A stretch of 64,000 bases of DNA, taken from positions 992,001 to 1,056,000 of the forward strand of contig NZ_OZ034986.1 of NCBI RefSeq assembly GCF_964030895.1. Direction: 5' to 3'. Both the position numbers and the translations under genes were made by a program. This stretch comes from Spiroplasma endosymbiont of Nebria brevicollis. Its GTDB lineage: Bacteria; Bacillota_I; Bacilli_A; Mycoplasmatales; VBWQ01. The notes beneath the pieces were generated by a model, which saw only the letters and a list, made by a program, of their open reading frames with translations, was not told where the DNA came from and did no database searches. Shown piece by piece: positions 3,683-58,230 of the stretch (within the stretch, counting starts at the first letter, position 1; every line of letters starts with the position of its first letter).

Positions 3683-3699
3683 ATATTTTTATTAAATCT

Positions 3700-3720
3700 A
3701 TACCTATTTTTTATACGGCC
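3700..3720. other. Tandem-prophage junction / candidate phage attachment region
   Basis: After AAATCT comes ATACCTATTTT followed by TTATACGGCC. The inverted third copy has almost the same continuation at 58007-58027 (ATACCTATTTT, GGATACGCCC). Copy 2 instead runs straight into host sequence after AAATCTA. So these ~21 bases are either the start of the next phage genome (a rejoined attP) or an extra terminal piece lost from copy 2. Confidence 0.5.
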
Positions 3721-3862
3721 TCTTTTTAGTTTGTTGTTCTTGTAGTTTTGGTTCTAATTCAGTCTTAGTATTTTTATAAACAAAATTTCGGTGTTGTTCT
3801 AATAAATTTTCTAATTCTTCATTAGTATAATTTTTATTTTTATCTCAGTTAAAGTTTTCCAT
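3704..3862 (-). pseudogene. Truncated phage scaffold protein (inverted duplicate)
   Basis: 52 aa. The first 46 residues match the start of the scaffold protein at 6574-7104 with few changes (MENFNWDKNKNYTNEELE). The reading then runs into prophage-end sequence, giving a foreign KKRPYKK tail before TAG. It is a leftover of the inverted duplication and is not expected to work as a scaffold. Confidence 0.8.
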
Positions 3863-4425
3863 ATTTAACTCCTAAACTCACAGAATGGCTACTGTTTCCT
3901 TAATATTAATTATATCATTTTTTCCCTTTAAAATAAAGAAAAAATCTATATTTATTATAGATTTTCTAGTCATTATTTTCTATTTTTCTTGGTTCAGTAA
4001 TATTAATAATTATATCATTTTGAGTGTTATTATCTTCTTCATTTATATCAAATTCATTTGGATGTGATTTTCTTCAATGTTCATAAATTAATTGTGGAGT
4101 TACTAATGCTTTTTCTAACATATGAGTTGAAATAATACTACGTGCTTTATCATAACTTTTTAAAAATTTTACTTGTCATGGACTATTTCTACGTCGGCAA
4201 TCATATATAAATTTTCTATCAATTCCAAGAGCATTATTTAATCCTTGTGGTGTTAATGTTTTATTTTTTGTTCGTAAATAATTACTAATTTTAACCTCAT
4301 AATCTCCTAATTCTTTTCTTTGTTTTGGCATATTATTCACCTTTTATCCTTATGTATATTATAACATTTACTATTATTCTTATATATAATTATTTGTAGT
4401 TTAAAGAAAGGAATTAATATTATGA
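3725..4425 (+). repeat. 701-bp inverted repeat, left arm
   Basis: Reverse complement of 6011-6711, same length with only scattered substitutions and no indel that I could see. It carries a full TerS-like gene, a truncated scaffold gene, the promoter region and the first codon of a transposase. The arms face each other across about 1.6 kb. Confidence 0.92.
3966..4331 (-). CDS. Putative small terminase subunit, duplicate copy in the inverted arm
   Basis: 121 aa and full length. It differs from the protein at 6105-6470 by only a few residues (GDYEVKISN for GNYEVTISN; KALVT for KSLVT). It sits on the minus strand with its own -10 box and ribosome site, but the scaffold gene behind it is cut off. 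It could be expressed as a second TerS allele or be passive. Function is discussed at 6105. Confidence 0.6.
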
Positions 4426-4715
4426 CTTTAATTAATAATGAATATGATTATGATAGTTTAGATATTAAATATACAAATTTAAAAATAAAAGAATATGAAC
4501 AAGATTTATTAAATTATGATTATAATTATTTTAAAACTTATGATAAAAATAAATATAAATATATACAAAGAAGAGTAAAATTAATTATTAATCCTTTTGG
4601 AAAATCTTATCTTCCATTAAGAATATATAAAAATTTAGAAACTAATGAAAATATATGTCCAGTAAAAAATTTTATTAAAATTCTAGGGTGAATAAAGTTA
4701 ATAGTTATAATTTAA
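4422..4715 (+). pseudogene. ISLre2/UPF0236-type transposase, N-terminal fragment
   Basis: 97 aa, corresponding to roughly the first 90 residues of the transposase at 4872-6014: the shared pattern is YDKNKYKYI, then FGK, R.Y..LETNE and P..N.IKI. The sequence is clearly divergent from its neighbour, so it came from a different phage rather than being copied from it. No catalytic residues remain. Confidence 0.6.
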
Positions 4716-4871
4716 TTTTCTTTAAATAAAAGACAACATTAAACTATTTAATTGTTGCTATAATTATATCATATTATAGTTAATAAACAAGTATTTTAAT
4801 GTTTTATTTTATTATTTTATAACAAAAATTCCTAACTATTTAGGTTTAAGATTTATTAAGTTTTTAAAATA
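4716..4871. other. Spacer between the two facing transposase genes
   Basis: 156 bases of very AT-rich sequence with a short palindrome (CCTAACTATTTAGG at about 4830). No gene. It is the recombination point between two phage-derived segments. Confidence 0.5.
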
Positions 4872-6014
4872 TTAAAGTAAAAGATTTAATTTATTAATTC
4901 TTGCTGAATTAATTAAAAGCAAATTATTAAGTACTTTATCATTATAAATTTTAGCACCATAACCTTTTAATGATTTCACTAAATGTGAAACATCACTTTC
5001 AGCACAAACTCCTTGATTTCAATTTTCTTTTTGATTAATAATACCTTCTTTATTATTTTTAAAATATTTATATATTTTTTCATCAATATTATTTACTTTT
5101 AAAAAATCTAATAATAAATAATATTTACCATTAATAAATAAGTTATATGCATTTGTTAATTTTTTATTATCTACTTTTCTATTAAAAATAAATCCTTTTT
5201 TCAATGCTTTAAATGCATGATGTCTATCAATTACATAAGGAATATTTTCTTTTTTAGCAGAAGTTTTAATTCAAGGTGCACCATCGCCAATAAATACTAA
5301 ACTACTTTTATTATAAATAAATTGTAAATCAAGAAAATCATAAATTTTATCAATTAATTCTTGTCTTTTAATTCTTTCACCATTTTTAGTTTTCATATAA
5401 GTTATTTTTTTATCTTTTAAAACATTTCTACTTTTAGTAGATTTTTCTAAATCTGTACCTTTATTTGCACTAATTGTACGAATACGATTTTTTTGTTTTT
5501 TATTATTAAATAATGAAGAAATAAAACAATCATCCATATTTACAAATAATTTTTCATTTGGTAATAATATCTTTTTCTCTTTTATTTTTTCAACACCTAT
5601 TACTGCATTTTTCATTACATTAGTCATATATGTTTTAGAAAATTTAGCATTTTTTACTATATCTTGTACATCAGATTGTCTTTTACCATTACCTGAATTT
5701 TTTATTATTATATGTTCTAAATTAGTTAAGGTTCTTTTTCTTTTTTTAATTTTTATATAATTATCTAAAGGATAATAATATTCATTAGTTTCTAATATTA
5801 AATAACATCTACGATAAAAATCATTTATTTTACCATATTTAGTATTTGGGCTTCTTGGAGCAGTTTTAACATATTTATATTTACTTTTATCATATTTATT
5901 TTTATGTCAAAAATCATCATATGCTAATCATATATTTCTGAAATAATTAATATCATTTTTATTAATTTCTTTATCACATTCTTCATAATCAAGTTCATCA
6001 GTAAGAAAATTCAT
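4872..6014 (-). CDS. ISLre2/UPF0236-family DDE transposase
   Basis: 380 aa. The pattern of the UPF0236/ISLre2 family is present: VNMDD (D161/D162), IGDGAPW (D244) and AESDVSH (E339), the likely DDE triad, with GNGKRQSDVQDIV upstream as helix-turn-helix. NCBI names relatives in mollicutes after the Mbov_0401 ICE transposase-like protein. The gene is divergent from TerS, separated by 90 bases with a promoter. In both arms of the inverted repeat a transposase lies at this same place, so it looks like a regular phage gene rather than a late IS insertion. No terminal inverted repeats were found right around it. Confidence 0.78.
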
Positions 6015-6072
6015 AATATTAATTCCTTTCTTTAAACTACAAATAATTATATATAAGAATAATAGTAAATGT

Positions 6073-6078
6073 TATAAT
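6073..6078 (+). promoter_or_regulatory. -10 box of the phage late operon
   Basis: TATAAT, 27 bases before the TerS start, duplicated in mirror image at 4358-4363. A good -35 is not visible in the AT-rich upstream sequence, and the divergent transposase start lies 60 bases away. Confidence 0.5.
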
Positions 6079-6104
6079 ATACATAAGGATAAAAGGTGAA
6101 TAAT

Positions 6105-6470
6105 ATGCCAAAACAAAGAAAAGAATTAGGAAATTATGAGGTTACAATTAGTAATTATTTACGAACAAAAAATAAAACATTAACACCACAAGGATTAAAT
6201 AATGCTCTTGGAATTGATAGAAAATTTATATATGATTGCCGACGTAGAAATAGTCCATGACAAGTAAAATTTTTAAAAAGTTATGATAAAGCACGTAGTA
6301 TTATTTCAACTCATATGTTAGAAAAATCATTAGTAACTCCACAATTAATTTATGAACATTGAAGAAAATCACATCCAAATGAATTTGATATAAATGAAGA
6401 AGATAATAACACTCAAAATGATATAATTATTAATATTACTGAACCAAGAAAAATAGAAAATAATGACTAG
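6105..6470 (+). CDS. Putative terminase small subunit / HTH protein, first late gene
   Basis: 121 aa. A helix-turn-helix-like segment LTPQGLNNALGIDRKFIYD (about residues 26-44) is followed by a Lys/Arg-rich helical region and a short acidic tail (NITEPRKIEN). This arrangement resembles small terminase subunits of Firmicutes phages, which recognise the pac site, and it lies directly before scaffold and capsid. TerL, however, is 12 kb away on the other strand. The alternative is a late-gene regulator. A terminator-like hairpin (6471-6497) follows. Confidence 0.5.
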
Positions 6471-6497
6471 AAAATCTATAATAAATATAGATTTTTT
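6471..6497 (+). terminator. Hairpin between TerS and scaffold genes
   Basis: AAAATCTAT, AATAA, ATATAGATTTTTTC: a stem followed by a T run. It would reduce or end transcription before the scaffold gene; a TATAAT at 6522-6527 may restart it. Confidence 0.6.
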
Positions 6498-6573
6498 CTT
6501 TATTTTAAAGGGAAAAAATGATATAATTAATATTAAGGAAACAGTAGCCATTCTGTGAGTTTAGGAGTTAAAT

Positions 6574-7104
6574 ATGGAAAACTTTAACTGAGATAAAAAT
6601 AAAAATTATACTAATGAAGAATTAGAAAGTTTATTAGAACAACACCGAAATTTTGTTTACAAAACTACTAAGACTGAATTAGAACCAAAACTACAAGAAC
6701 AACAAACTAAATTAAAAGAATATGAAACTAAAATTAATAGTTATGAAGAGCAACAATTATTTTCTAATATTAAAGATACTAAAAAAGTAAATTTAATTAA
6801 AAATTTAATGAGTACTGATAATTATAAATCTTTATCTAAACAAGAAGCATTTAATAAAATAAATGAAGATTATAAAGAATTTCTTATTGATAAAATATCA
6901 GAATCTTTTAAACAAGAAAATAAACCTAATACAAATGATTTTAATCCTAAAACTCTTTTAGATTTACATACAAATAGTATTAATCCAGAAGAATTAGAAA
7001 GAAAATTAAATGAAAAAGCAAAAACTACAGGTATTACTGACCCTAACGAATTAGAAAAACTTGTAAATTTAGCAAGAGGAAATGCACTTAAATCTATTAA
7101 ATAG
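6574..7104 (+). CDS. Phage scaffold protein
   Basis: 176 aa, highly charged and mostly helical (Glu/Lys/Asn/Gln-rich), with a coiled-coil stretch around residues 40-70. It is placed immediately before the major capsid gene. This composition and position are typical of capsid-assembly scaffolds. Start chosen at ATG with AGGAG eight bases upstream. The first 46 codons are duplicated at 3704-3862. Confidence 0.7.
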
Positions 7105-7116
7105 AAAGAGGATAAA

Positions 7117-8460
7117 ATGGCAATTCCACAAATACCTAAAGCATTTATTATTGGTGGTAATACACCTACTGAAAATGCTGTTTTAAGTGTACTTGAAGCA
7201 CAAGTTCGTGGTGAATTAACTGCTGAAATAAGTACTTTATTTATGAGAAATACTGTTACTGCTGACCAAATAGCAAATATTAGTGGTGTCGCAATGGCAA
7301 TATATAGAGCAACAGTTCGTGTATTATGAGGTTCAACATGAGATGAATTTACTGGTACTAAAAGACAAAAAGGAACAGTTAAAACAACAACATTAATTAT
7401 TGATAAAGAATTAACAATTGATTTTAATATTCCAGAATTTGATATTGAAAGATTTATGACTTCACCAGCAAATGTAGCAACTCAAATTGTTTCAAATTGA
7501 ACAAGTTCATTTATGAGAAATTTAAGAGAAAATTTTGAATTAATATTTTTACAAGGTACCAAAGATTATGCAATTGCTAAATCATTAGTATTACCTTTAA
7601 ATTTAAATAATATGACTAAAGAACAAGCATTAAATGCTTATTATATAATTGGAGAAAGAAATAATAAATTAATTAAAAAAGTAGATGATATTACGGTTGG
7701 TATTAATAAAGCAGATTTAACTGGTGCTTGTGGTATTGATAGTAGTTTTAATTTGGCAAAAGCATTTACATTATTAAATTATGGTCAAATTGCTGCAAAT
7801 ACTTTAGCAACTGGTAAAAGATATACAAATCAAATTATGGGTATGGAATTTTATGAAAGTTTTTATTTAGAACAAGATTTTATTCATGATACAGTTTCTG
7901 GTATGCATTTAGAAAAAGATTATAATTTATTAAATTTATTTGGTGTAGTTTATAACAGATATATGTGAGGTATGCCTATTTCATTTACAAAAGTAAGAAA
8001 TAAATTAGATAATGCAACAGATAATATTCGTATTATTGGGAAAGCATTATATGCATTACCAAGTGCAATTAGACCAGATTTAATGTATATTATTCAAGAA
8101 AAAATGCCAACAATTGATGAAATTAAAACAGCAAGAGCAAAAAATTATAAAACAGACCCAACTAATGTTAATGCTACTTATCAATCAACAGATTATGATA
8201 ATATGAATATTTTAGATTTACAAAATATAATTTATTATAAAGATTTAGGAAAAATTACTATTGCTAGTGATAATCCTACTAGTGATGAATTAGATATAGC
8301 AATAGTAAATTCTGGTAATGTTGGATTTACACCTAAAAAAGCAACATATACTAATATTACTAATACAAGTGCAATTATGACTGGTGATAATAAAGAATAT
8401 TATGGAACAGTTAAATTAACATTTTCAAAAGTAAAAAAGAAACAAGTTAATAATGACTAA
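7117..8460 (+). CDS. Major capsid protein with C-terminal lipoprotein-repeat-like domain
   Basis: 447 aa, reading through three TGA Trp codons; the strong ribosome site AGAGG lies upstream. It follows the scaffold gene and has the size and composition of an HK97-fold capsid protein (helical N-arm, then mixed). Residues about 365-447 differ in style: LGKITIASDNPTSDEL ... TNITNTSAI ... YYGTVKLTF. This pattern closely follows the repeats of the surface lipoprotein at 39730-41655 (TNITEVSAI ... YTGSVTVTL). It is probably a surface decoration domain. Assignment as capsid is by position and length. Confidence 0.7.
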
Positions 8461-8743
8461 TATATATGAATATTTTAATTATAAAAATGAAATTATTATA
8501 AATTCACCAAAACCAGAAGATTTAACTACTAGTAATGATTTAAGAGCAATATTACTTGATGAATATCCTAAATTAAGAAATGATTATTTTATAGTAAGTG
8601 ATATACATGATGATTTTGCTATATGTGTTGGAGATAATATAAATTGTCAAGGTAAAGTAATAATTCAAATTAAAAAATCTACTAAATTATTAAAAGGAGA
8701 AAATAAACATGCCACAACATGCTGAGACTACATCATTGAGTAA
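8453..8743 (+). CDS. Small phage structural protein, unknown
   Basis: 96 aa, overlapping the capsid stop by 8 bases. The last six codons follow a TGA Trp and overlap the next gene by 35 bases. Beta-rich C-terminal half (FIVSDIHDDFAICVGDN). Its position after the capsid suggests a head-completion or head-tail protein, but no motif proves it. Confidence 0.6.
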
Positions 8744-9578
8744 TTATACTTTAATAAAATTAATTAGAACAGGTATAAGTCCTATTTCAGCAATGATTGG
8801 AACTAGTGCTTATTATGGACAATTAATAGGGAATCCAATATTAGGCTCAATTAATAGTTTATTATTTGGTAAAAAATTAGGTTTAGATATATGAAATTTA
8901 AATCAAAGACCTTCTTCTAAAACTAAATTTATTAATAGTAGTAAAAAAATATTATTAGGTTTAGGAACAATTAGTTTAGTAAATTATACTAAGTTTTTAA
9001 ATACTGTTATTAATCCCATAGAACCTACTACAACATCATTTCCTATTACTAGTACTACAGCACCTATACATACAACAACATTAAGCACTACAAGTACAAC
9101 ATCTACTACTGTTAATCCATTTCCAGATAATTTATTTAATATTTTATTTAATAATAATTCTAATAATTTAATGGATTGAGATACTTATATTTCATTAAAT
9201 GCTTATGGTATTTCAAATCTTATTAGTGGAATTACTGAATTAATACCTAATAGATTTGAACCAATAAGAAAAATAGCAAATATGGGTACTGGTGGGTGTT
9301 TAATTAGTAGTGGTGTAGCAATGGGTATTAATAATGATTTTAATAATGCTTATGCTATTCCTACAATAATAGCGGGTGCTAGTGAAATTATACATAATTT
9401 ATTACCAATGAAAACAAATCATGATAGAGAAATGCAAGAAACTAGTTTTATTGATAATGAAACTCAACCAATAATATCAGATGATAATATTTTTGATTGA
9501 GATAACTATGAAATAAGAAATACTATTAATGATTATGTTCCTAATATTCAATGTAATAATAGTAATTTTACTTTATAA
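8709..9578 (+). CDS. Phage membrane-associated protein with Thr-rich linker
   Basis: 289 aa. It has a Gly/Ile-rich hydrophobic segment near residues 25-60, a Thr/Ser/Pro-rich linker (about residues 115-145, many TTT/STT repeats), then another Gly/Ala/Ile-rich region (about 195-235) and an acidic tail. Start overlaps the previous gene; stop overlaps the next start (TAATG). The layout (two hydrophobic parts, flexible linker) suggests a protein acting at the host membrane, perhaps in DNA ejection. Function unknown. Confidence 0.6.
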
Positions 9579-10468
9579 TGTTACCTTTAATTATTAGATT
9601 AATATATTCTGCATTAGCTAGTGATGATATTCGAGTATTAATTGTTAGTTTATTAAAAAATTATAGTAAAGATAATGGATTAAAATCAGTGTTAGATAGT
9701 GAAAATGTTTCTATTGAAGAATTAAATCAACCTTATTCAGTTTTTAATCCTAATATTGCTAAAAAATTATTATCTATTTTAAAACCTAATGAATTAACTA
9801 TTTTAAAAACTGAATTAGATAAATTATTTGTTAATCCAATTAAAAAAGTTAATAATTTATTTAAAGATAATAATAAAGATATAGAAGAAACTAATAATAA
9901 AGATGATAAAGGTTGAGTAATATTATCTAGTTCATGATTAAAAAAAGGTTTATTTTATAAATCTAATAAATCACTTAAATTAGGATTATTACAAGTTTTA
10001 ATACAATCTGATACATATAAAAATAAACGTTGATATGGTCCATATACTTATCCTAATGTAAATGAAGAGACTTGAGAATTAATGAAAGTTCAAAAAGGTA
10101 AAAATGGTAGTGGTGCTGGAACAATATTTTGAAGATATTTTTTAAGGGGTTTTTTACCTTCACAAATACGTAAATATGTTAAGAAACAACTTAAAGAAGA
10201 GAAAGGTATTAGTAAAGGTAAACAACGCTATAATGTGCTTAAATCAACTAATATTAATGTATTAAAAACAACTGCATTTATTAATAGATTAGAACGTGGA
10301 TTTTTTAAACTTAAAGAATTTAAAATTTTACCAAAAACTGAATTAGGTAGTAGAGCATGAAGAGTAGAAAGAAAAGAATATTTAAATTTTCATAAAACAA
10401 GTAGTACTACTAAAAATATAGGTATTTCTATTTATAAAAATAAAAGTAAATATAAAACATGAAAGTAG
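9578..10468 (+). CDS. Phage protein of unknown function, basic C-terminus
   Basis: 296 aa. Helical N-terminus (residues 1-35), acidic Asn-rich linker (about 95-112), then an aromatic-rich middle (SSSWLKKGLFY, RWYGPYTYPNV, GAGTIFWRYF) that vaguely recalls the KTSC domain (residue-spacing resemblance only), then a strongly basic tail with many Lys. Four or more Trp are TGA. Could bind DNA or RNA. Not recognised. Confidence 0.55.
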
Positions 10469-10476
10469 GTGATTAT

Positions 10477-10995
10477 ATGGATATAGATTTAACAAAACCT
10501 ATTAAACCAATTGGTATATGAAATACTATTAATCCAATATCAAAAGATAATAAAGAATATAAAAAATTAAATAAAATTTGATTTAATAAAAATAGTACTC
10601 ATATAGATAAAATCAAAATATTAATATCTAATATTTTAAAAATAACTAGTCATATTATTGGTATATTAATAACATTATTTTTTACAATAACACCATGATT
10701 ACTACCTAAAATACCAATAGAAATGGGAATTGGAAGTTATACAACTCAATATAATTTTACTTGACCTGACCATTTAATATTAACTTTATTTCCAATGTTT
10801 AGTCATATAGGAGTAAATGTTATTACTAAATTAGGTAATTATGGAAAATTAATTAAATATGGATTAATAACAATTCCAATTATTATTACAAGTCCTTATT
10901 TAATTTATCAATATCAACAAATTAAAAAACATAAAAAAGAATGTATTTTATGTAAAAATCATTCAAATAAAATTCAAATAGAAAAGGTGGAATAA
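10477..10995 (+). CDS. Phage integral membrane protein
   Basis: 172 aa. Hydrophilic N-terminus (about 45 residues), then three membrane segments (roughly residues 48-73, 95-115 and 130-147), then a basic tail with CILCKNH. Followed three bases later by another membrane protein gene. Possible roles are lysis (holin-like) or virion membrane contact. Confidence 0.6.
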
Positions 10996-10998
10996 AAA

Positions 10999-11340
10999 AT
11001 GAATTTAACAGTATATTTATTAAGTGGAATTATAGGAGGAGCAGTTACTAGTGGGGTTATTATTACTTTTGTATTATCTATTATTTCAAAAAAAATTAAA
11101 AAAAATAAACAAGATATAGTTGCTAAAGAACTTAAAATTAATAAATTAATTGAATATATTATTTTAAATATTAAACAATTAAATGATAGATTACAATTAA
11201 CAGAAACTCCTATTGCACAAAAATTAGATGCTTTTGATGTTGATGAAAAAGATTTTGAAGATTTTATTATTGCTCAAAAAGCAAAACGTCAAGAATTAAC
11301 AAATAAAGATAAGAAAAAAGTAACTAAAATTAAAATTTAA
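10999..11340 (+). CDS. Single-span phage membrane protein with coiled tail
   Basis: 113 aa: one N-terminal membrane helix with Gly-rich face (YLLSGIIGGAVTSGVII), then a long Lys-rich cytoplasmic helix. A one-helix anchor with a charged tail could be a holin or spanin-like lysis factor in a wall-less host, but there is no direct evidence. Followed by a terminator. Confidence 0.6.
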   Translation: MNLTVYLLSGIIGGAVTSGVIITFVLSIISKKIKKNKQDIVAKELKINKLIEYIILNIKQLNDRLQLTETPIAQKLDAFDVDEKDFEDFIIAQKAKRQELTNKDKKKVTKIKI

Positions 11341-11358
11341 AGGGTTTAAATACCCTTT
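11339..11358 (+). terminator. Terminator after membrane protein genes
   Basis: AAAGGGT, loop, ACCCTTT followed by ATTTTT. It separates the head/membrane genes from the fibre gene, which has its own AAGGAG ribosome site. Confidence 0.7.
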
Positions 11359-11381
11359 ATTTTTACATTAAGGAGTAAATT

Positions 11382-13379
11382 ATGGCAATTAAAGACCCAA
11401 TATTATTTATTACAGTTGAAGAATTTAAATTATCAAAATATTTTAATGAATTATTATTTGATAAAGTAACTACTCCAGATAATGAAATTTGATTTGCAAT
11501 ATCTGTAGCTAGTAGTAATATTGATTATTTAAGTGGTTTTACTATTAGTAAAAAATGACCAGAAATAACACCAACAGATTTTACAGATAATGTTCAAACA
11601 GCAACTACTAATTATGTTAGATTTTTATTAACTAAAGATGTAGATTATTTACGTGGTCAAGGTTCAATTAGTCAAGGTGGATTAACTTATAGTGAAACTA
11701 ATCCAGATGACCCTTATTTTATCCCACCCGAAGTATTTAATTATTTAAGAAAAATTAAAGAATATCCAAATATTAAAGGTTTTAATTTAAAAGGAATAGA
11801 ACCACAAAAAAATAATTATTTTAATAAATTTATTTCAAATTGTGGAGAAGATAGTCCATTAAATGCATATATACCATATACTAATATAAAATCATTAGAT
11901 ATTAGAACTAAAATTACTATTAATAATACACAAAATATGTTAAGACCAGTTGTTAATATTGATACTAGAGGTATTAATACAAGTACTACAGTACCTGAAT
12001 TTAAAAGTCCAAAAAAAACTATTGATATTAAATATGATAAAGAAACTCATGTAGTTAATACTGATATTAGTAATAAATTACAAAATGAAATTAATAATAA
12101 ACAAGATAAATTAATTGCAGGTACTAATATAACTATTAAAGATAATATTATTAGTGCTACTGGTGGTAGTGAACCACCAGATTTAACTGATTATTATAAA
12201 AAAGAAGAAACTAATAATTTATTAGATAAAAAAGAAAGTATTGAAAATCATAATAATGATATAAAATCAGTAGAATTAAAAATTAGTCAACTTCATACTG
12301 AAGTAACTAATAATATGAGTAATATAATTTTGAAACAAAATATTAAAGATGAAAAATTAATTACAGATAAAAAAGAAATTGTTCCTGCTATTAATGAAAA
12401 TAAAGTAAATATTGATAAAAAACAAGATAAATTAACTGCTGGGGATAATATTACTATTGATAAAAATAATAAAATTAGTGCTAGTGGGGGAAGTTCAGTT
12501 GATGAAAATAGAATATTTGATAATAAAGATGATAAAGATACTACTACTAATTTAATTAATAATGTTATTAAAAAAGGTAATAAGACATTAACATATAGAA
12601 ATAATCCGTTTGTAACTGATGATTTAGATATTCCACATAAAAAATATGTTGATGATAAAATTAATGAATTAAATTTTATTAAATGAAAATCAGTTGGTAC
12701 TATTAGTAATGAGAATGATAATATTGCATTTAATTTTAAATTAAACACTTTATATAGAGTTGCTTATTCATGAGCATATCTTAAAAGTAATGGAAGTAGT
12801 AAATATTTAATTTTTATGTGAAGAGGCGCACCTGCTATATTAGATAGTACATTTCAAGCAGAAAATAATCAAAAGGTAGTAACTAATTATGTTGATTTAG
12901 GTGTTACATCAGCAATGATTTATTTAAAAAAATATAATTATCAAACTGGTTTTTTGCTTTCATTAGAAGAAGCAGAAAATACAAATACTAAAAATTATAG
13001 TGAACAAATATTACCAATAACTCCACCAATACCACCAACACCTTGTCCATGTCCAAAATGAAAAGAAGTAGGAACAAGACAAACTAAAGATAGAATTTTA
13101 TATGATTTTATTGTGGGTAAAAAATATAGAGTTACTTATATGTGATACGGAGATACGCAACCTATTTCTTATTCTATAACTAAAGAATTTGATAAACTAG
13201 TATCAAACAAGATTGATTGTATATATACAATAGATAGTTATGTACGAAATTGAAGTTTAGTTAATAAAAATAAAATTGAGTTGTTTAAATTAGAAGTTAA
13301 TAATATTTGTATTAGAATTAACAACGCTGGTGGTATTACTTATGGAAATATTTTAAAATTAGAAGAATTACAAGAATAA
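11382..13379 (+). CDS. Phage tail fibre with fused connector-like N-terminus and doubled C-terminal domain
   Basis: 665 aa. Residues 1-125 resemble gp6/YqbG-type head-tail connector proteins (AS..ID.LSG early, a helix with NYVRFLL, then SISQGGLTYSE). The middle holds two copies of the fibre motif KQDKL.AG.NITI...ISA.GG (about 245-265 and 345-367) plus PHKKYVDDKI, typical of trimeric phage fibres. The end has two related domains, WKSVGT...LYRVAYSW and WKEVGT...KYRVTYMW, split by a Pro-rich linker (ITPPIPPTPCPCP). The doubled knob is probably receptor-binding. Confidence 0.75.
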
Positions 13380-13383
13380 ATAT

Positions 13384-13411
13384 AAAAAGTTACCAATTAA
13401 GGTAACTTTTT
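13384..13411. terminator. Bidirectional terminator between convergent phage operons
   Basis: AAAAGTTACC, AATTAA, GGTAACTTTTT. The equivalent at 62616-62646 has changed stem bases (AGTTACTA/TAGTAACT) but keeps pairing. Confidence 0.8.
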
Positions 13412-13481
13412 AATTAGGTGCCAACCTAATGTTTTTCTTACTTAAACTCTAAGTAAGAATTTTTATATTATACACTATTAT

Positions 13482-13796
13482 TTAAGATTGTGGGAGAATA
13501 ATATTTTTTTTATGTTTTCTTTTAAATTTAATTTTTCATTTAAATATTTTTTTAATTTTATTTCAAAAACTTTTTCAAAATCTAAATTCTGGATGTTGAT
13601 TTTTATATAATAAAATACATCCAATTATAGTACCAATAATATTTAAACCAATAGTTAAAATTAACACACCAAAAGGATTATTATTTTTAACTTTTATTAT
13701 GCCAAAAATAAAAGTTAAAATAATTATAAGTATATATATATATATGGATACTATAATTCAACCGACTAAATCAGCATTAATATTATAATATTTCAT
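13482..13796 (-). CDS. Small two-span phage membrane protein
   Basis: 104 aa. Two hydrophobic helices (about residues 10-35 and 42-65), then a strongly basic tail (KSFWNKIKKIFKWKIKFKRK). Start at 13796 gives a good AAAGGA ribosome spacing; the earlier in-frame ATG would sit on top of that site. Last gene of the leftward operon. Holin-like by shape only. At the same place in the other phage piece (62700 region) only a remnant of its 3' end remains. Confidence 0.6.
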
Positions 13797-13865
13797 AGTT
13801 GTCATTCCTTTTATAATTTATTAAACATATAGCAATTATAACAAAATAATAATAAATATATAATA

Positions 13866-16832
13866 TTATCGCGAATTAAAGACAATTTTTGAAATAGTTA
13901 ATTTATAATTAATAATTTGTCTATTTTTTTCTGCTCATGTAGATATATCAGATTGAACTTGAAAATCTGCACCTTGAACTTGATTTATTATTGGAAATAA
14001 TTGTATTTTTCACTTAAATTCTTTATCAGATAAATCACAAAAACCTAGATAAGTAGAATTATTTGAAATAATATTTATATTTTTATCATAACTATAAGAA
14101 ACATTCGAAGAAAAAGTATTTTTTGAAATTTCATATAAATTAATAATATCATTAGGTAATGTACCTATTTTTGAAACACCAACATATTGATTAATTCTAA
14201 ATGATACTTGATAATATTGTATATTATAATCTTCGAATAATTTTAATTTTTTATTAGTATTATATGTATCTAAAGTATTAAATTCTTTACTAAATTGTAA
14301 TGATAATTCATTAGTAGGAATAAATTTTTCATCTGTTGTGATAGGGTTATAATGTACTACTGGTCATTCTTCTGTTTCATATTTATAACTTATATATAAA
14401 TCTATACTCTTATAATATCTTTTTAAATCATTAAAAGTATTAATTAATAATGTTGGGTCTAAATAATCTTTAAAATTAATATCTATTTCTAATGGTTTGA
14501 TTAATGGTAGATTATTATTTATTCAATTTGTATTATCATTATACATTACTTTATTATTATGTATTAATGTATCTCAGTGTTGTAATGTAATATCAACACT
14601 TGGATTTTTTGGAATAATAACTATTTGTTTTGCTATATTTTGTGGACTTGGTGGTAAGATATTTGCTGGATAACTAAATGTAGTTTCTTCAGTTTCTTTA
14701 TATTCATCATGATTTAATTTATATAAAGTAGTTCAATTAAAAGCATTACTAGTTAATGCTCCTTTATTTTTATATCTAAATTGTGCTATTGAAAGTTCAT
14801 TATAATCACCTTGATAAGTAAATGGATTATCACTATAAAATGTATGTCTTTCTTCACCTTGATGTAATGATTGAGTTACAATTGTATCAATAATGTATGC
14901 ATAATTAGAACCATCACTAACACCATTACTTGTTGGATTTCATTGACAATCTTTATCTAAATTAGTTAATGGACTTGCTATATCTAAAAATTCAGTATCT
15001 TCTGCTAAAATATAAACTTTATTATTTTTCTTTTGTGATAAATCAACTGTACTAATTTGTTCTTTAGTGGTTAATTTATGACCAGTTTTAGGGTCTCATG
15101 GATATACTGATATTCTATCTGTAAGTTTCATAGTCATAGCAGTTGTAGAAACATTAGCACCTAATAATTTACCAATAGCAAAAGCATTATCATTAGTAAA
15201 TGCATTTAATGGAATTAAACCACCATTACCAATAATATTTTCTAAATTATTTGTAAAAAATGCTGACATAAAACCATTAAAATATAACATTTTTTTATAT
15301 TGTTGATTATTTTGATTAATAATAAAACCAATTGGAATACCTAAACTTAAAACATTTAATAATTTACCAATTAATGGTATATCACTTAAAGCAAATGGTA
15401 ATCATTGTACACTATCATAAGGCATTTGAATTAAACTACTAAATACTACTGAATTAAAATTTAATATAGCACTCATATATTTTTGACTTATTTTTGAATA
15501 ATCTACAGTTGGTGAACCAATAATTAAATTAGTATCTGGGTCTTTATATTTAAAATTACTAGACATATCTACATTATAATTACCAGAGATATTATTAATA
15601 TTTCATTCACTATCTCAAAAGAATTTAGCTTCTCCAATTGCTGTACCATTACTATTAGTTGCTTTTGTTTTATCAAATGCTAACATACCTTTAAAATCTT
15701 TTGTAACAAATAAATTTGCTTGTAAATTTAAACTAGTTGATAATCATTCTTTTCAATTTTTAAAATTAAGATATCCAGTAGGTTTTGCATCCATTAAATT
15801 ATAAAATGTAGTTTCTGGATGACTATTAGTAGTTATTTTATCATTAATACCTGCTAATAAACCACCATTATTTTTAACAGTAGTACTTGAATGGTCATTA
15901 TTACCTGCAATAAATAATCTTCTTGAAGCAAATACTTTTTGTTCAAATATTTCATTATTATTAATTTGATTAGGTGCTTGACCTTGTATTATAGGTCTAC
16001 CATAATAATAACAACTAGATAATAATTCTAAACCATAAGATTGTCTATGACTATATCTTACTCCAATATCACGCATTAAAGTACGATTTAACGTTACTAA
16101 ACTATTTTGAATAGTAGGGAAAGCATAACCACTACCTGGACTTGCATATTGTACATAATCAAGCGTATTTTGACCACTTGCTACTGCTCTATCATTAACT
16201 GAACTAAAAGTTAATACTTGCATACTAAATTCACCATTATAAGGACTATAATAATTAGTTACATTTGAAATATATAATAATTGTCTATCTTGATTTTTAC
16301 CAGTATTACCACCAATATTTTCATTTTTATCATTAAATACACAAAAAAATTGTAAATAATCATCTACTGTAATTTGTTCTTCAAACATAACTAATATATA
16401 TTGTCTTGTTGTAGAAATTGTTTTAAATAATTGATTATTAGGTAAACCACCAAAATCTACACCACTTGTATCATCAATTAAATAAGCATTTCAATAATCA
16501 CCAATTTTATATTGTTTAGTATAATATTGGTCTTGTCCAGTAGTTTTATGAGTAGTTGGGTCTGTTATACCTTTATTTTTTTGATAGATTTTAGTACTAT
16601 TTTTTCAAATACATACAACTGGAGTATTACCAGAAAGTATTAATTCATATTGACCAAAATCACTAATTTTACTATTAATAGGTTTATAACCAGTTTCAGT
16701 TAAAGGTATTGCTCCATTATTAATTATAAATGGAAATATTTTTCAATGACTTAAACGTTTAATTATTGCTTGTTGTCTCTTTAGATGTAAATGTGCGTGT
16801 TTCATTAATTGAATTCTTTGATGATTGCTCAT
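13866..16832 (-). CDS. Large phage tail protein (podovirus-knob-like), 988 aa
   Basis: Reading through about a dozen TGA Trp codons gives one 988-aa protein. Start at 16832 (MSNHQRIQLMKH) chosen for AGGAG nine bases upstream; it overlaps the portal 3' end. A hydrophobic Gly/Ile/Leu-rich stretch near residues 460-485 (PLIGKLLNVLSLGIPIGF) inside an otherwise soluble protein resembles the membrane-inserting loops of phi29-type tail knobs. The remainder is beta-rich. The last third exists in a second allele at 62933-64000: residues about 630-740 identical, the C-terminus divergent. Likely the ejection tube or receptor-contact protein. Confidence 0.65.
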
Positions 16833-18114
16833 TTTCATTATCTCCTAATTCTTTATTTAATTTTTTATTTTCTATAATAATATTTTCTAATTTATTTTCT
16901 GCCATAAGTTGGTCAATATTATCATATTCACCAATTGCTTCACTTACTGTCATAGTACCATTATTTAATCTTGAATTAATAATTTGGTCTTGTACTATTT
17001 GGTCAGTCATTGCTATAGGGATAAATTTAAATGAATAAGGTCTTTCACCAATACCATTTCATAAATTTTCACTAATAAGAAGTAAATCAAATATACGATA
17101 AAAATAAGCACTATAAAATGCTATTTTAATTTCTGTTGTTTCCATATCAAATTTATTATTAAACATACTTTGTGTTTTATTAGTATAAACATCATTACCA
17201 TGTTCATCATAATCATAACCAGAACCATTAAATATTGCTTTAGCAGTACCATTATAATCTAATCAATATTCACTAAATTTTGGGTCACCTTGTATAATTT
17301 GCATACTACCATTCCCATTTTTATCATATCCAGCACTACCAACATTAACTATCATATCTTTTTTAGGATTTTCAATAATATTACCATTTTCTTGCATTTC
17401 TTTAACTGTTTCATTATCTAATACAGCAAATAAAGTAGTAACATTAAATTCTCTTTCTAATCTTTTTTTCTTAATAACTTGATTTAAATCTCATATTAAA
17501 TCTCATACTGCTGTACAATCTGGATATGCATTTAAAGTAGTTGTATTACCATATAAATTAATAATTGGTAAATTAGTTATTTCAAAAATAGGAATATAAT
17601 TAAATGAATTTTTAATTTCATAAGTTTTTAATGGTGTTATATTTGGTTTTAATTTAGTTCTTGTAGAACCTAAAATAATATCTTTATTATTATCTTTATA
17701 TGTTTCATATTTAACTTTTCCATTTTGTATTATTACTCAAGTTAAAGTAGCACTATCAGCTTGTTCATTAATAAAATAAAATTCTGCTGATTGTTCTTGT
17801 TCATTATATTTAGCAACTCTACCACAAAAACTATTAGGTAATATTTTAAGGGATTTACTATTATCTTCATTAATTATAATCATAATAAATACTTTACCCA
17901 TTAGTGAATTTTGTAAACCAAATTTATAAAATTTTTCTAATCATTTATCTTTTAAATTCATTTCATTAAGATAATCTAATATTTCTTTTTTACTTGAATT
18001 AAATAAAAATCCTTTACCTAATCATAATTTAGTTGATTTTTGAGCAATAATCATTGGTATATCAATATATCAATCTTTTTTATCACAACTTAAATATTCC
18101 ATTGTATTTATCAT
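16759..18114 (-). CDS. Phage portal protein
   Basis: 451 aa. Directly downstream of TerL with GGTGGTG ribosome site overlapping the TerL stop. Predicted portal features: N-terminal wing with PIFEITNLP/DCTAVWDLIWDLNQ, a long central helical stem, and an acidic Glu/Asn-rich C-terminus (ENEQSSKNSINETR). The order TerL-portal-tail is standard. No invariant motif exists for portals, so the call rests on length, order and general pattern. Confidence 0.7.
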
Positions 18115-18115
18115 A

Positions 18116-19588
18116 TTAATCACCACCAAAATTATTTTTATTAATTAATAATTTATTATTAATACCATTAATTAATCATTTCATTTCATGCATTAATGCA
18201 TACATATCACTATCTCAAGTATCATCATGTAAATCTAACATTTTCGGACTATTATTATTAGTATCTAATTTCTTTTTATCTAATCATTGCATTAAACTAT
18301 ATTGTCTTTTAGTTTCTGGACATCTTTCTCAATTAAAACTAATAATATTTTTAAGCATACAAATTGTTGTAAAATCAATTCTATCATTTAAATATAAAAT
18401 TGATTTATCTACTGCTATAAATTTTAATCATGTTATATTACGTTTTTTAACTCAACTTTTTAAAACATCAATAAATACTAACCCACCATTACCATAATCA
18501 ACATAACAAGTAAAACCAAATAACATTGCTATATAACGTTTACTTTCATTAATATAATAATTAATAATATCATTTGCTAAAGTATCAGTATCTTTATATT
18601 GCATAGTAACATTACTATGATAAAATTCACTTTCTTTATGTGCTCTTCTACCATTATCATTTTCACCAATAAATCATAATGAAGCAGATGTAGGATGACC
18701 ACTTGGACTTGTTGCCATACCTATATCTAAACCACCAGTTAATCTTTGTACTTGAAAATCTAATTTAGTATTAACTTTATCTAAATATCTAGCAAAAATA
18801 GCACCTTGTAAAATACTTGGTACACCATAATATCAACTTTGTGCTTTAATTGGATCTAATACTTTTAATTCTTCTAAATCATTAATCATATCTAATGTAA
18901 GATTATGAGCATTTACTTTTCAATTACTATAATGAAATAATTTAAAAATATTATTATCAAATATTGATTTAATTTGTTCATTTTTTTCTTTCATTATTTC
19001 TAAATTAAAAGGTACAATTTTATTCATATATTCAATATAATATTGATAAATATTATCTGGATTACAACTTTTTATTTTTATTCTTTTTTTAGCATTACCT
19101 AATGCAAATGTTATTGCTTGAAATTCTTGTTGACTAAATTCATTTGCTTCTTCACATCATTCAATTGCTAAATCAAAACCTTTTATTTCACTACGAGAAA
19201 GACCTTTTAAAGGTATTCTATCATTTGAATTACTATATACACCCATTACCCTAATAAATGATTTAAAACCTTTAAAACGAAAGTCTGCTTGCTTATTAGG
19301 GTATTTTAAAGTAAAGTCTTTATAATCATTCAATCCAATTATTATTAAAGCATTATATATTTCTTTTACTAAATCATTAATATCTTTATTTAATTTTCTA
19401 AATGCATAAATAGCAATTGATTTTTGTACTTTAATTGATATAACTATTAATATTGCTAATTCTTCTGCTATACTATATGTTTTACTAGAATATCTACTAC
19501 CACTAAGATTATATTCACTATGAGTAAAATCACTTTTATTTAATAATCAATAACTAATTTCATTAAGATAAGTAAATTCTTTATTCAT
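18116..19588 (-). CDS. Terminase large subunit (PBSX/Terminase_3-like)
   Basis: 490 aa. Walker A-like GSRYSSKT at residues 30-37 and a Walker B-type region ending in FDLAIEWCEEANEF mark the packaging ATPase; the C-terminal half contains Asp-rich strands (VSPSGHPT, FIGENDNGR) as expected for the nuclease domain. It packages DNA into the prohead through the portal. AAGGAG lies 8 bases before the ATG. This gene is missing from the third copy, where the sequence breaks off at 61980. Confidence 0.85.
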
Positions 19589-19592
19589 ATTA

Positions 19593-19769
19593 TTACTCCT
19601 TATTTTTATAATATTCTTTAATTTCTTTTACTTTATTATTAAAATCTAATTGATGTTTTTTACACATTTTAAAAAATTGAACAGAAGTATTTTCTAAATC
19701 TGTAGATTGTAATTTAATTAATACTTTACTATTACAATCTTTACAAATACATTTTAATTTAGTTTTCAT
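19593..19769 (-). CDS. Small zinc-finger protein before TerL
   Basis: 58 aa with CICKDC (residues 7-12) and a second CKKH pair (about 35-38), a likely treble or ribbon zinc site. Basic throughout. The ribosome site of TerL is inside its last codons, so the two are probably coupled. A second identical copy is at 61803-61979. Role unknown; small HNH-like or packaging accessory proteins occur here in other phages, but no HNH motif is present. Confidence 0.65.
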   Translation of the reverse strand: MKTKLKCICKDCNSKVLIKLQSTDLENTSVQFFKMCKKHQLDFNNKVKEIKEYYKNKE

Positions 19770-19770
19770 T

Positions 19771-19875
19771 TTATTTTTTCCTTACTAAATCAAGTAATAA
19801 AACAATAAAACAACCTAAATTTATTAATGCTATTATTGTAGAATTTATAATTATTAATATTTCTCATCAAACCAT
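19771..19875 (-). CDS. Tiny membrane protein
   Basis: 34 aa: MVWWEILIIINST then one long hydrophobic helix and LVRKK. Start overlaps the resolvase stop (TAATG). Identical at 61697-61801. Single-span; purpose unknown. Confidence 0.55.
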
Positions 19876-20405
19876 TATTTCACTTCCTTATTTAAATAAT
19901 ATCAACCAATTAATAAACTTTCTGCTTGGTCATGGTCTTTAATTTTAATATTTCAATTATGGTTCTTAATCATGAATTGAGAAAGTTCAATTGATAACTC
20001 TTTAGTTCAAGGTTTATAATTTCAATTATATTTAATTTCATCTAAACTTTGATATCATTTTCTTCATTCACTACTACTAACTAACATATCTTTAGTTAAT
20101 AATTTATTAAATTGTCCAGCAATAAAACCACGTAAATGGTCTAATGTTTCTTTACCTTTACCAAATTTTGGATTAAATATCCCACGTTCAATTACTAAAT
20201 ATAAACTATAATCTGTTTTATCATCAATTACACCTAAATTATTAGTTTGACATTGTAGAAAAACCATATTAATAAAATCAGTAAAATAATGATAATCTTT
20301 TTTAGAAAAATTAAGACTAGTTATTAATATTGGTATTTTATTTTCTCATAATGTAAACCCAGTATTTTTTATACTTGGGTCAATTGAAAGTAAATAATTA
20401 TTCAT
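19875..20405 (-). CDS. RuvC-like Holliday junction resolvase (complete, copy 2)
   Basis: 176 aa. LLSIDPSIKNTG at the N-terminus (D9), LVIERGIF in the middle (Glu of the second strand) and DHDQAESLLIGW at the end (D157/D159) follow the order of catalytic acids in RuvC/RNase H-fold resolvases. Likely resolves recombination or packaging intermediates. Last of the recombination genes before the packaging genes. Starts within the recT 3' end. Confidence 0.78.
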
Positions 20406-21195
20406 TACTAAATACTACCTTATCTAAATTATCAATATTAGTTTGTATTTGTTCATAATTAATATTTATTTCTTCTTTTGGTTCTTCAATAGATTTTAAT
20501 TTAATTTCTTTATTATCATTATTTGGATTATCAACATACATTATATTTTCATTTTCTAATACTATTGCTTGATCAATTTGCATTGCTCTATCAATAATAT
20601 TTTGATTTTCTAATTTAATACTAGGGTCTTTATTAATATCTCTAATAATTGCTTTAATAACTGTTTTAAGTGCCATAGCATTAAAACTAGTAGTTCATGG
20701 ACTATTACCATTTGTTTTACTATATTTTTTTCTATGTTCTTCACATTCTTGTTTAGTCATACCTTTAATAAAAGTAATTATTTTATCTAAATAATTTTTA
20801 ATAGAAATCATACCATAATAACCAATAATTATTTTATTTTCAAATATTTTACTAGGATCTAATTCTCAACGTTTAGTTTCTTTATTAAAAATATGTTTAT
20901 CAGTAATAATTTCTCTTTGAAAATCAATAACACAATTTGAACGTTGTAATAAAGTTAAAAAACCATCTTCTTGAATTTGTACTTGTAATTCATTATTATA
21001 AGGTATTAATGCTATTTCTTTTTTAATTGGATTATTACTTAAATCTAATTCAAATATAGTTGCTAAAGTATTAATAACTGATTGTGGATTTAATGTTGAT
21101 AATTTTTTATCATTTAATTTTGTTAATTCATAATAGTTAGTAAATTGTTGTATTTTTGATTTATCTATATTTTTAGGTAAAGTTAAATTTGCCAT
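20398..21195 (-). CDS. recT: RecT-family single-strand annealing protein (copy 2)
   Basis: 265 aa, differing from copy 1 at only a few positions (MANLT for MANLI; ETKRW for ETQRW). Same overlaps with the nuclease and resolvase genes. Confidence 0.85.
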
Positions 21196-21836
21196 TAGTG
21201 ATTTTCCTTTCAAAGTGCAATTGCCATTTCTCATTCATATACTAATTCATCTGTTATTTCTACTAATATTTTTTCTACATTATCTTTTTGAATTCAATAA
21301 ATATAATGTGTATTTGATAAATTAAAACCATTATTTTTTAATATTCAATAATAAGCAGTTAATTGTAATATTGATTTTTCTTTATTTTCTTTATACATAT
21401 TTGATAATGTTTTAAAATCAATTATTGTATATAAATTATTTTCTTTATAAATTAAATCTGGTGTTCCAGCAATAATATCATAAGTAAATACTTGTTCACA
21501 TATATATTTAGTATTTACTTTAAATTCTTGTAAATTATTTAATAAATTTTCACAATATTGTAAATAATTTTTATTAAATAAATGTTGAATATTATTTAAT
21601 AATTTATCTTTTATATTATTAATATTTATATTTTTAAAATATAATTCTGCTACTTTATGAACAGTTTCTCCTCTTAATCTAGCATTTTCTAATCTATCAA
21701 AAGGTATATTTTCATAAGGATTTTTATCTTCATATAAATAATATTGAATAATTTTAGAAACTGAAATTAATTCTTTATTTTTAATAAAATATTGATGTGT
21801 ATCTTTTTTAAAAATTAAATTATTATTCAATTGCAT
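21195..21836 (-). CDS. PD-(D/E)XK nuclease, partner of RecT (copy 2)
   Basis: 213 aa. Catalytic GTPD, IDFK and LQLTAYY motifs as in copy 1. The first 35 residues follow the copy 3 version (QLNNNL, YFIKNKELISVS), marking a recombination crossover within the gene. Confidence 0.82.
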
Positions 21837-21984
21837 TTTTAATTAAATTCCTTACAAAATTAGTAATTGACATATTATTATTTTCTAAGCAAAGTTTTTT
21901 TAATTCATAATGTTCTTCTTTAGTTAATCTAACAAAAATTTGTTTATTAATTAAATCTTCTATTTTTTTCTTATGTGCTGGCAT
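21823..21984 (-). CDS. Small ribbon-helix-helix-like DNA-binding protein (copy 2)
   Basis: 53 aa. The best of the three for the fold: KQIFVRLTKEEHYELKKLC, then SITNFVRNLIKNAI. The strand residues, which in ribbon-helix-helix repressors read the operator, differ from copy 1 (MIVRLTIDE) and copy 3 (IHIWVNKTD). Confidence 0.6.
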   Translation of the reverse strand: MPAHKKKIEDLINKQIFVRLTKEEHYELKKLCLENNNMSITNFVRNLIKNAIE

Positions 21985-22081
21985 TAAAATCACCATCCTC
22001 TATATCTTTTAATAAATCTTTAATATTAATATATTCTTTCACTGTAAGTTGTAATTCTAAATAATTTCTTAATTTATCCAT
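21971..22081 (-). CDS. Very small protein found only in copy 2
   Basis: 36 aa (MDKLRNYLELQLTVKEYINI...), Leu/Asp-rich and helical. It overlaps both neighbours (stop inside the next start, start inside the previous stop), so it is probably translated. Function unknown. Confidence 0.45.
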   Translation of the reverse strand: MDKLRNYLELQLTVKEYINIKDLLKDIEDGDFNAST

Positions 22082-22298
22082 TATTATTAACTCCTTTAAT
22101 ATCTAATTCCATTACTAATATTTCATAATTTGTAATAAATGCTTTTTGAGTAACTATTCTTTCAAAAGTATTATCATTTAATATAGGATGTTTATAATTT
22201 TTATGAAAATTAATAGCATTTTCAATTTTAGTAAATACTTTATATTTTGTTTCATGAGTATAATTAACTTTATATTTTAATAAATAAGCATATTGCAT
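22074..22298 (-). CDS. Small phage protein, YLL-YK family (copy 2)
   Basis: 74 aa; longer than copy 1 by an insertion in the middle (NDNTFERIVTQKAFI). Same N- and C-terminal blocks. Confidence 0.6.
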   Translation of the reverse strand: MQYAYLLKYKVNYTHETKYKVFTKIENAINFHKNYKHPILNDNTFERIVTQKAFITNYEILVMELDIKGVNNNG

Positions 22299-22311
22299 TA
22301 TCTTTTCTCCT

Positions 22312-22485
22312 TTAAAAATTTTCTAATTGTAATTCATTAATATAATAGTTATATAAACTATCATAGTTATCACTTGTTAAATATATATCTTCTTCAATCA
22401 TATTATTAATACATTTATTACAATAATAACTATTATCTATTTCACTAATTCAAATATATTTTTTATTATGTAATTTACATTTCAT
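22312..22485 (-). CDS. Small zinc-ribbon protein (copy 2)
   Basis: 57 aa, same as 2438-2611 apart from rare changes. CKLH and CNKC pairs are kept. Confidence 0.6.
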
Positions 22486-22630
22486 TATTTTTACCTATTA
22501 ATTTATAAAAACAGTTATTACATGTTCTATTATTTATAGATGATTGTTTATGACAAATATCACAACTATGAGTAATAATATTATTTAAATAAGTTTTTTT
22601 ATATTCAATATTTTCTTTTCATAAATACAT
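22475..22630 (-). CDS. Double-CxxC zinc protein, longer form (copy 2)
   Basis: 51 aa. The N-terminus (MYLWKENIEYKKTYLN) replaces the first four residues of the 39-aa version, then NIITHSCDIC and CNNC match. A TGA Trp lies at codon 4. Confidence 0.55.
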
Positions 22631-22647
22631 ATATATTAATTCCTTTC

Positions 22648-23136
22648 TTAATATTTTAAATAAAATATTTTATTATTATGAGTTACTAAATCTTTTAATG
22701 ATGTTACTATATAATTTATTACTAAATCATTATGATTATATGGATTATTTATTTTAAAACTTTTTCTATCTTTTTCTCAGGTAATATTATATTTAAAACA
22801 TTCTTCATTTTTTATTTGTCCAATATAATAACCATTATATTTTTTATAAAATTCAAAAGTAATTAATTTTTCAATAATTTTATTATTTATTATTGGTTTT
22901 TCTTTCAAATCTTCAATTTGAATATATTGTTTTAATAATTCTTTTAATTGCACACCATTTAATTCTTTTTTTATATTATCTTTAAAAACTCAATATATTC
23001 GTGTTTCATCAATATTAAAAGAATTTTTGTTAATAAAACATTTAGAAATTGATATTTTATATTCTCCAAATTCAATTATTATTGCACCATTATTTGTTTC
23101 TTTAATAATTTGGTCTTGTGAAAATTCTATTATCAT
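22648..23136 (-). CDS. First gene of the early operon, unknown function (copy 2)
   Basis: 162 aa, nearly identical to 2738-3226. Same leader hairpin and AAAGAAAGG ribosome site. Confidence 0.65.
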
Positions 23137-23606
23137 TTTAAAAACCTTTCTTTTTATTCAGCACTGCTACTTTTAGTAAGCAGTTGCTGTTTTTTATTTT
23201 CTTTTTTTAAAAATCTTATAAATAGGTTCTTGTTCACTGATAGTGACAAGACCTAAAAAAAATAAAAATATATTTACTAATTATTTAATTTATGTTAATA
23301 TATAATTGATAAGGTATGTATTTATATATAACCCCCTTTATGTGTAATAATTTAAAAATAATTAAAGAACAGGGTTTATGGTTATTACATAATCTTGAAA
23401 AATTCTTTACTAACTCAATATAGAGACTTCAATTAATAGACAAATACATACAATAACAATTCAATAAAAATTAATAAATTACTCTTTTATACTCATGTAG
23501 TAGTATTTACATAAAGTACTCACAATTTAACTAACTACGAGAGTTTATTTAATTTAACAATTAAAAATGAGAGTATTATCTCTCATTTATATTTTTATTA
23601 AATCTA
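23137..23606. promoter_or_regulatory. Leader and prophage right-end region (copy 2), no gene
   Basis: Matches 3227-3700. Holds stem-loop 1 (23159-23189), a changed stem-loop 2 (23224-23254), the ACCCCC run and the GAGAG/CTCTC hairpin. Ends at the host junction. Confidence 0.5.
23224..23254 (-). promoter_or_regulatory. Stem-loop 2 in early-operon leader (copy 2)
   Basis: AGGTTCTTGTTCAC, loop TGATA, GTGACAAGACCT. Compared with copy 1 several stem positions changed on both sides and pairing is retained. Confidence 0.6.
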
Positions 23607-23607
23607 A
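23601..23607. other. Prophage 2 / chromosome junction (right end)
   Basis: Phage sequence AATCTA meets ACCATTAACTT of the host gene. Codons of the host frame are open from 23608 on, and a stop just upstream (TAA at 23605-23607) is formed by the junction itself. The left host junction is outside the window. Confidence 0.7.
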
Positions 23608-54254: not shown

Positions 54255-54255
54255 A

Positions 54256-55203: not shown

Positions 55204-55237
55204 TTTTAATACTTCTTTTAAATCAGTATTATATTTT

Positions 55238-55954: not shown

Positions 55955-55968
55955 AGTATTAATTTTCC

Positions 55969-57160: not shown

Positions 57161-57175
57161 TTTAACTTTCCTTTT

Positions 57176-57999: not shown

Positions 58000-58230
58000 T
58001 TCAATTGGGCGTATCCAAAATAGGTATAGATTTAATAAAAATATAAATGAGAGATAATACTCTCATTTTTAATTGTTAAACAATTATAATTAATTATTTT
58101 GATAAATCTGTACTTTATTAAAGTAATTAATTATTACATAACTTAATAAAAATTATTAAAGGCTATAGTGCAGATATAACTAATAGTAATTTTTGTGTTG
58201 GTCTTTTATAACTTTATATTTTTTTTGGTT

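Follow-up and report, generated by a model that had tools for sequence, protein, structure and literature searches.

The window analysed here, a stretch of 64,000 nucleotides, corresponds to positions 992001–1056000 of the 1.49-Mb single-contig genome of the Spiroplasma endosymbiont of Nebria brevicollis. Its left part holds a prophage, P2, which is bounded by terminal inverted repeats (TIRs) and carries the following features (window coordinates and strand, with the basis of each assignment in parentheses).

4686–23626 (genome 996686–1015626), unstranded: prophage P2, 18.9 kb, the mobile unit including both TIRs (pattern search for ends and flank comparison; colinear with other copies)
4686–4710, + strand: P2 left TIR, type A, GGGTGAATAAAGTTAATAGTTATAA (end scans, flank comparison)
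4872–6014, − strand: DDE transposase of the mycoplasma-ICE type (NF046004), type A, 380 aa (ORF call, family score, alignment, model)
6096–6470, + strand: terminase small subunit, terS-like (weak family matches, conserved position)
6574–7104, + strand: gene in the scaffold-protein position, interrupted by prophage P1 in the P0 copy (function inferred from position)
7117–8460, + strand: probable major capsid protein (position and size relative to phage MaM-2019a; no family match)
16759–18129, − strand: probable portal protein (adjoins terL as in MaM-2019a; no informative family match)
18116–19588, − strand: terminase large subunit, terL (phrog_2, E = 4e-19)
19875–20405, − strand: RuvC-like Holliday junction resolvase (family search)
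20398–21234, − strand: RecT-like annealing protein (PF03837, E = 3.5e-23)
21195–21836, − strand: PD-(D/E)XK exonuclease (family search)
23605–23626, − strand: P2 right TIR, type A, GGGTGAGTAAAGTTAATGGTTA (end scans, flank comparison)

Among the P2 ORFs scanned, from which a few shorter than 60 aa were left out, we found no tyrosine or serine recombinase or other integration enzyme and no conjugation genes; the genes that P2 carries are phage genes. Its terminase has close relatives in Spiroplasma ixodetis SHM and in the Spiroplasma of Danaus chrysippus, from which we infer that the host genome most likely belongs to the Ixodetis clade. No relative of the terminase or of the transposase was found in IMG/VR. 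As a separate observation, a segment of ~5.2 kb comprising terL, the probable portal gene, and a 990-aa gene (window ~14368–19601, P2 positions 9683–14916) has one orientation in the prophages P1, 279, 434, 1050, and 1251 and the opposite orientation in P2, 797, and 852. The borders of this segment, around a 665-aa gene, are variable in sequence, and it looks like an invertible segment whose recombinase is unidentified.

The ORF at 4872–6014 (translated under code 4) was identified through NCBIfam; Pfam and PHROGs alone did not identify it. The closest curated family is NF046004, the mycoplasma-ICE transposase, with 227 bits versus a cut-off of 162. Residues D161, D244, and E339, and likewise the motif D263-x-x-H266, are invariant in 19 aligned homologues. 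The AlphaFold model of the protein (pLDDT 89) has as its best PDB match the transposase of ISCth4, a member of the IS256 family (E = 6e-10), and, judged by the alignment and by this structural match, the enzyme satisfies the criterion of a DDE triad in an RNase-H fold. The original prediction had described an ISLre2-type DDE transposase, encoded divergently from terS and related to the transposases of mycoplasma ICEs, in a prophage without a tyrosine or serine recombinase. All of this was borne out except the ISLre2 identity, which was rejected (55 bits versus a cut-off of 200, and no close second TIR around the gene). That the enzyme catalyses integration remains an inference from sequence, since neither its activity nor present-day activity of P2 has been shown.

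Mapping of all copies revealed that the left part of the window consists of three nested prophages, with P1 and P2 both lying within an older, inverted prophage, P0. P1 (genome 976456–995720) is inserted in the scaffold-position gene of P0, and P2 is inserted in the P0 transposase gene, so that a second terS and the start of a second scaffold gene appear in inverted orientation at 3725–4453. These neighbouring features, together with the end of a further prophage at the right of the window, are as follows.

3696–3720, − strand: right TIR of P1, type B; P1 extends leftwards beyond the window to genome position 976456 (end scans)
3725–4685, − strand: piece of P0 left between P1 (right end) and P2 (left end), holding the scaffold-gene start, terS (3966–4340, − strand), and the start of a type-B transposase gene (4422–4683, + strand)
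58007–58031, + strand: right TIR of a further prophage (the 1050 prophage, genome 1050007–1069042, with a type-B transposase), which runs out of the window (end scans)

A clearly different transposase allele had been predicted, as a fragment, beside this other terS. The transposase is indeed a distinct one, of type B; the fragment itself is the N-terminal part of the P0 gene, cut by the left end of P2. At the junctions of P1 (window 3696–3724; genome 976440–976456), 13 bp of the target are missing and a few bases are unmatched, without a clean duplication. Elsewhere, at genome positions 1248040–1272794, one prophage lies inside another whose middle is absent on both sides of the insert, an arrangement that suggests deletion between nested or tandem copies. 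To the left of the 1050 prophage, window positions 53316–57556 contain genes resembling part of another phage, and the 220 bp adjoining its left end are repeated several times elsewhere in the genome. Our comparisons within this genome cover the stretches taken around prophages, not the whole sequence.

The TIRs were exposed by comparing P1 with the intact scaffold-position gene, and scans then located these ends on the remaining prophages of this genome. They are imperfect repeats of ~25 bp that start with GG. Those of P2, which has a type-A enzyme, read GGGTGAATAAAGTTAATAGTTA on the left and GGGTGAGTAAAGTTAATGGTTA on the right, and those of the type-B prophages GGGCGAATAAAATATACGTATAGAT (left) and GG[CG]CGTAT..AAAATAGGTATAGAT (right). 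Thus, the TIR sequence varies with the type of transposase, yet left fits right within each prophage: in a comparison of six elements, four of them prophages and two of them deposited phage contigs, the assignment of each left end to its own right end was the best of 720. The correspondence between TIR and enzyme holds for type A in two species. The left TIR of P2 begins 186 bp past the 3′ end of the transposase gene, which is transcribed towards it. At genome positions 687349–687355, only 5 bp (CGCAC) separate a type-A right TIR from a TIR-like sequence that faces the opposite way and belongs to another type; the arrangement resembles a joined-end junction between two elements.

Exact 8-bp target duplications were found around four prophages in three genomes. 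Two of these, AAAGATTT and GATTTAGA, are in the present genome, and each is shared by the two ends of one prophage. When all 27 ends of this genome were paired, identical 8-mers in the correct orientation occurred in 2 of 351 pairings, each time between the two ends of a single prophage; the chance of an 8-bp match is ~1–2e-4 per pair. The third duplication, GTAATATG, flanks a prophage of S. ixodetis SHM, where, in our reading, the joined flanks restore a frame homologous to window positions 8709–9578. The fourth, GCAATAGC, belongs to a second phage family (genome G008, positions C1:1375435–1394366). This family has a terminase only ~28% identical and an NF046004-family transposase ~2 kb from the terminase, near the left end; its relatives occur in genomes G000, G005, and G007, and the right ends of several of its prophages were not found.

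An exact duplication was not found for P1, P2, the 1050 prophage, the prophage at 1251–1270 kb, and two prophages in relatives (G005 and G007). In the case of P2, the left flank is P0, the right flank is unrelated, and the flanks are rearranged. Pairing of flanks across prophages, tried as an explanation for the missing duplications, gave no exact cross-match among the 351 pairs. A search with joined flanks showed three insertion sites (of prophages 852, 434, and 797) that are kept uninterrupted in relatives. At the 852 site, which falls within another element's transposase gene, the flanks overlap by exactly 8 bp. The 434 site, contiguous in relatives, has a ruvB-like gene on one side and a secDF-like gene on the other (names from reading the flanking ORFs); the overlap here spans eight positions, and the copies are decayed. 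Four relatives have the 797 site, in a gene for a membrane protein, as contiguous sequence, and its duplication is best read as TTTACAAC, with one copy lacking three bases. The duplications at 434 and 797 are legible only if decay, or the loss of 3 bp, is allowed for. No empty site could be demonstrated in relatives for the 1050 prophage, because its left flank is multicopy sequence, and for prophage 279 the relatives did not cleanly span the junction. The insertion targets, namely the transposase gene of another element, a membrane-protein gene, the ruvB–secDF interval, and other prophages, are unrelated to each other.

The position of the transposase gene was assessed for 25 terS genes from stretches of nine Spiroplasma-group genomes (G000, G004, G007, G008, G114, G146, G173, G191, and G197). 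This is not a random sample because the stretches were picked by terminase or transposase hits. A divergent DDE transposase gene stands upstream of terS at every one of these loci, within 500 bp at all but one (24/25), and the position is kept while enzyme identity falls to ~30%. One idea to consider is that the gene is an ordinary IS that landed beside terS in an ancestor and has been carried along, the phage integrating by other means; the transposase family indeed has 30–57 copies per genome, many of them outside these prophages. However, no convincing TIR pair encloses the transposase gene alone and no second TIR closes it off; the TIRs stand at the two ends of the whole phage, the target duplications flank the entire phage, and the position is constant across such divergent enzymes. 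We regard this explanation as largely refuted and give it hardly any weight.

The prophages could also be transposons that are driven in trans by resident ICE or IS transposases, their own gene being dispensable. Many related transposases per genome, broken transposase genes in some of the other prophage copies, and the mosaic ends of the prophage at 1251022–1270667 (left TIR of type B, right TIR A-like) would be in line with this. Against it, the TIRs vary in step with the type of transposase that the phage itself encodes, and for type A this is seen in two species. A second point comes from the S. poulsonii-type group, where the terS-side slot is often occupied by an IS30-family transposase. 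The slot enzymes of G114, G173, G191, and G197 have as a relative the transposase of the MSRO-P1 contig, an IS30-family enzyme (NF033563, 197 bits), and three prophages of the IS30 type (19.3–19.9 kb) have TIRs reading TGTAT.ATGTA... and exact 3-bp duplications (TAA, ATA, and AAA). The IS30-family enzyme is unrelated to the NF046004 type, and the swap comes with different TIRs and a different duplication length. Driving in trans thus seems improbable to us.

Taken together, whole-prophage TIRs, 8-bp duplications, empty sites, and the fixed gene position support the reading that, in these temperate dsDNA phages of Spiroplasma, the whole genome of ~19 kb behaves as one transposon with its own transposase as the integration enzyme. 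We hold this with a probability of roughly 90%, the activity of the enzyme being inferred. Integration by transposition, with the transposase as a standing phage gene, was what the original prediction had proposed, to be checked by asking whether the gene always adjoins terS and by mapping the prophage ends for TIRs and short target duplications. It would have been contradicted by IS ends right around the gene, or by related phages that lack the gene and use a site-specific integrase; neither was encountered, those without the NF046004-type enzyme carrying the IS30-family DDE transposase in the same slot.

Information on the packaged form comes from contigs of Spiroplasma phage MaM-2019a (OL689226, OL689227, and OL689230), which, as published (PMC12453411), derive from particle DNA. 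These phages share with P2 the order of the left end, with a transposase divergent from terS, as well as a similar size, a homologous terL, a RuvC-like gene, and a RecT-like or ERF gene. They differ in that terL is only ~32% identical to that of P2, and in the deposited records the gene is labelled as a transposase or hypothetical protein, without annotation of TIRs or duplications. In the contigs, the right end is joined to the left end through short spacers of 5, 5, and 3 bp (NSRO-P1, ATTAT; NSRO-P2, AAAAT; MSRO-P1, TTT). The phages are distant relatives, and there is no such junction for P2. With transposases only ~30% identical to that of P2, they offer no more than a distant analogy for the circle step proposed below.

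Among tailed phages, transposition is known from the Mu type; Mu-like phages make 5-bp target duplications and have host DNA at their virion ends. A cycle of this kind, with repeated replicative transposition and packaging directly from integrated copies, would leave many scattered copies per genome, as seen here, and a terminase is present as in Mu-like phages. Both kinds of phage are temperate dsDNA phages with many insertion sites and a DDE transposase. However, the transposase belongs to another family, with a fold nearest to IS256/ISCth4, the duplications are 8 bp or 3 bp rather than 5 bp, and the MaM-2019a contigs run through the joined right and left ends. The joined ends therefore point to circles or concatemers, that is, to copy-out/paste-in transposition, and not to Mu-type packaging; tandem prophages as their source are not excluded. 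Overall, we consider a Mu-like cycle unlikely.

Under the preferred reading, in which the phage itself is the transposon, the phage-coded transposase would pair its own two ends and join them into a circle with a short spacer, by copy-out, the route taken by IS256/ISCth4, TnGBS, and mycoplasma ICEs. This circle could then serve as the template for phage replication, concatemers being made with the RecT, exonuclease, and RuvC-like proteins and packaged by the terminase through a headful mechanism. In a newly infected cell, where infection would re-create the junction, the joined ends would be pasted into a new, near-random site. The transposase would thereby do the work for which ordinary temperate phages use a tyrosine or serine integrase.

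Such a cycle would add a route to the prophage state for a tailed phage, the integrase giving way to a transposase of the kind that has taken its place in the ICEs of mycoplasmas and streptococci. It accounts for the many scattered, nested, and inverted prophage copies in Spiroplasma genomes, supplies exact prophage ends for annotation, and opens genome rearrangement by phages in these symbionts to testing. The matched left and right ends of each transposase type are, in addition, a natural data set on end recognition by this transposase family. Transposases in place of integrases in ICEs and tailed phages of the Mu type are already known; their combination here appears to be new, in that the literature searched, which left out most subscription papers, contained no description of a tailed phage that uses a copy-out/paste-in transposase of the IS type.

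The closest known systems are the mycoplasma ICEs and TnGBS, in which a transposase replaces the integrase (PMC3942029, PMC7466169). Mycoplasma ICEs (ICEA/MICE, CDS22, and p-MULT5) and TnGBS share with P2 and its relatives the NF046004 family, as judged by the curated model, a large element with the transposase gene next to one of its inverted repeats, 8-bp duplications, and the lack of a tyrosine or serine integrase; near-random targets are shared with the mycoplasma ICEs. The p-MULT elements have inverted repeats of 18–39 bp that end in C (a 5′ G on the other strand), direct repeats of 8 or 9 bp at the target, and a circular form with ends 6–10 bp apart (PMC3942029). The prophage repeats (~25 bp, starting with GG) match the first of these features, and the four exact 8-bp cases match the second, whereas P2 and several other copies have no exact repeat. 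Bearing on the third are only the 5-bp spacers in the contigs of the distantly related MaM-2019a phages. The difference lies in the cargo, which in P2 is a tailed-phage genome with terminase and recombination genes instead of a conjugation module. Similarly, ISCth4 and IS256 form circles in which a short spacer separates the ends (for IS256, of 5, 6, 7, or 19 bp) and generate 8-bp duplications (PMC7780238), and IS30 likewise uses copy-out/paste-in (PMC9333248). The phages share the enzyme fold (ISCth4), the 8-bp duplications, and, in the MaM-2019a contigs, a 5-bp-type spacer between joined ends with the former, and the family of the second transposase found in the terS-side slot with the latter. 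They differ in that the mobile unit is a phage of ~19 kb instead of an IS of ~1.5 kb and in that transcription of the transposase gene runs towards the left end. These phages probably represent a class of transposable tailed phages apart from Mu, combining lambda-like circle/concatemer replication and headful packaging with an IS-type copy-out/paste-in integration module. This module would have been swapped between two unrelated families (mycoplasma-ICE/IS256-like and IS30), and with each family come its own ends and its own duplication length.
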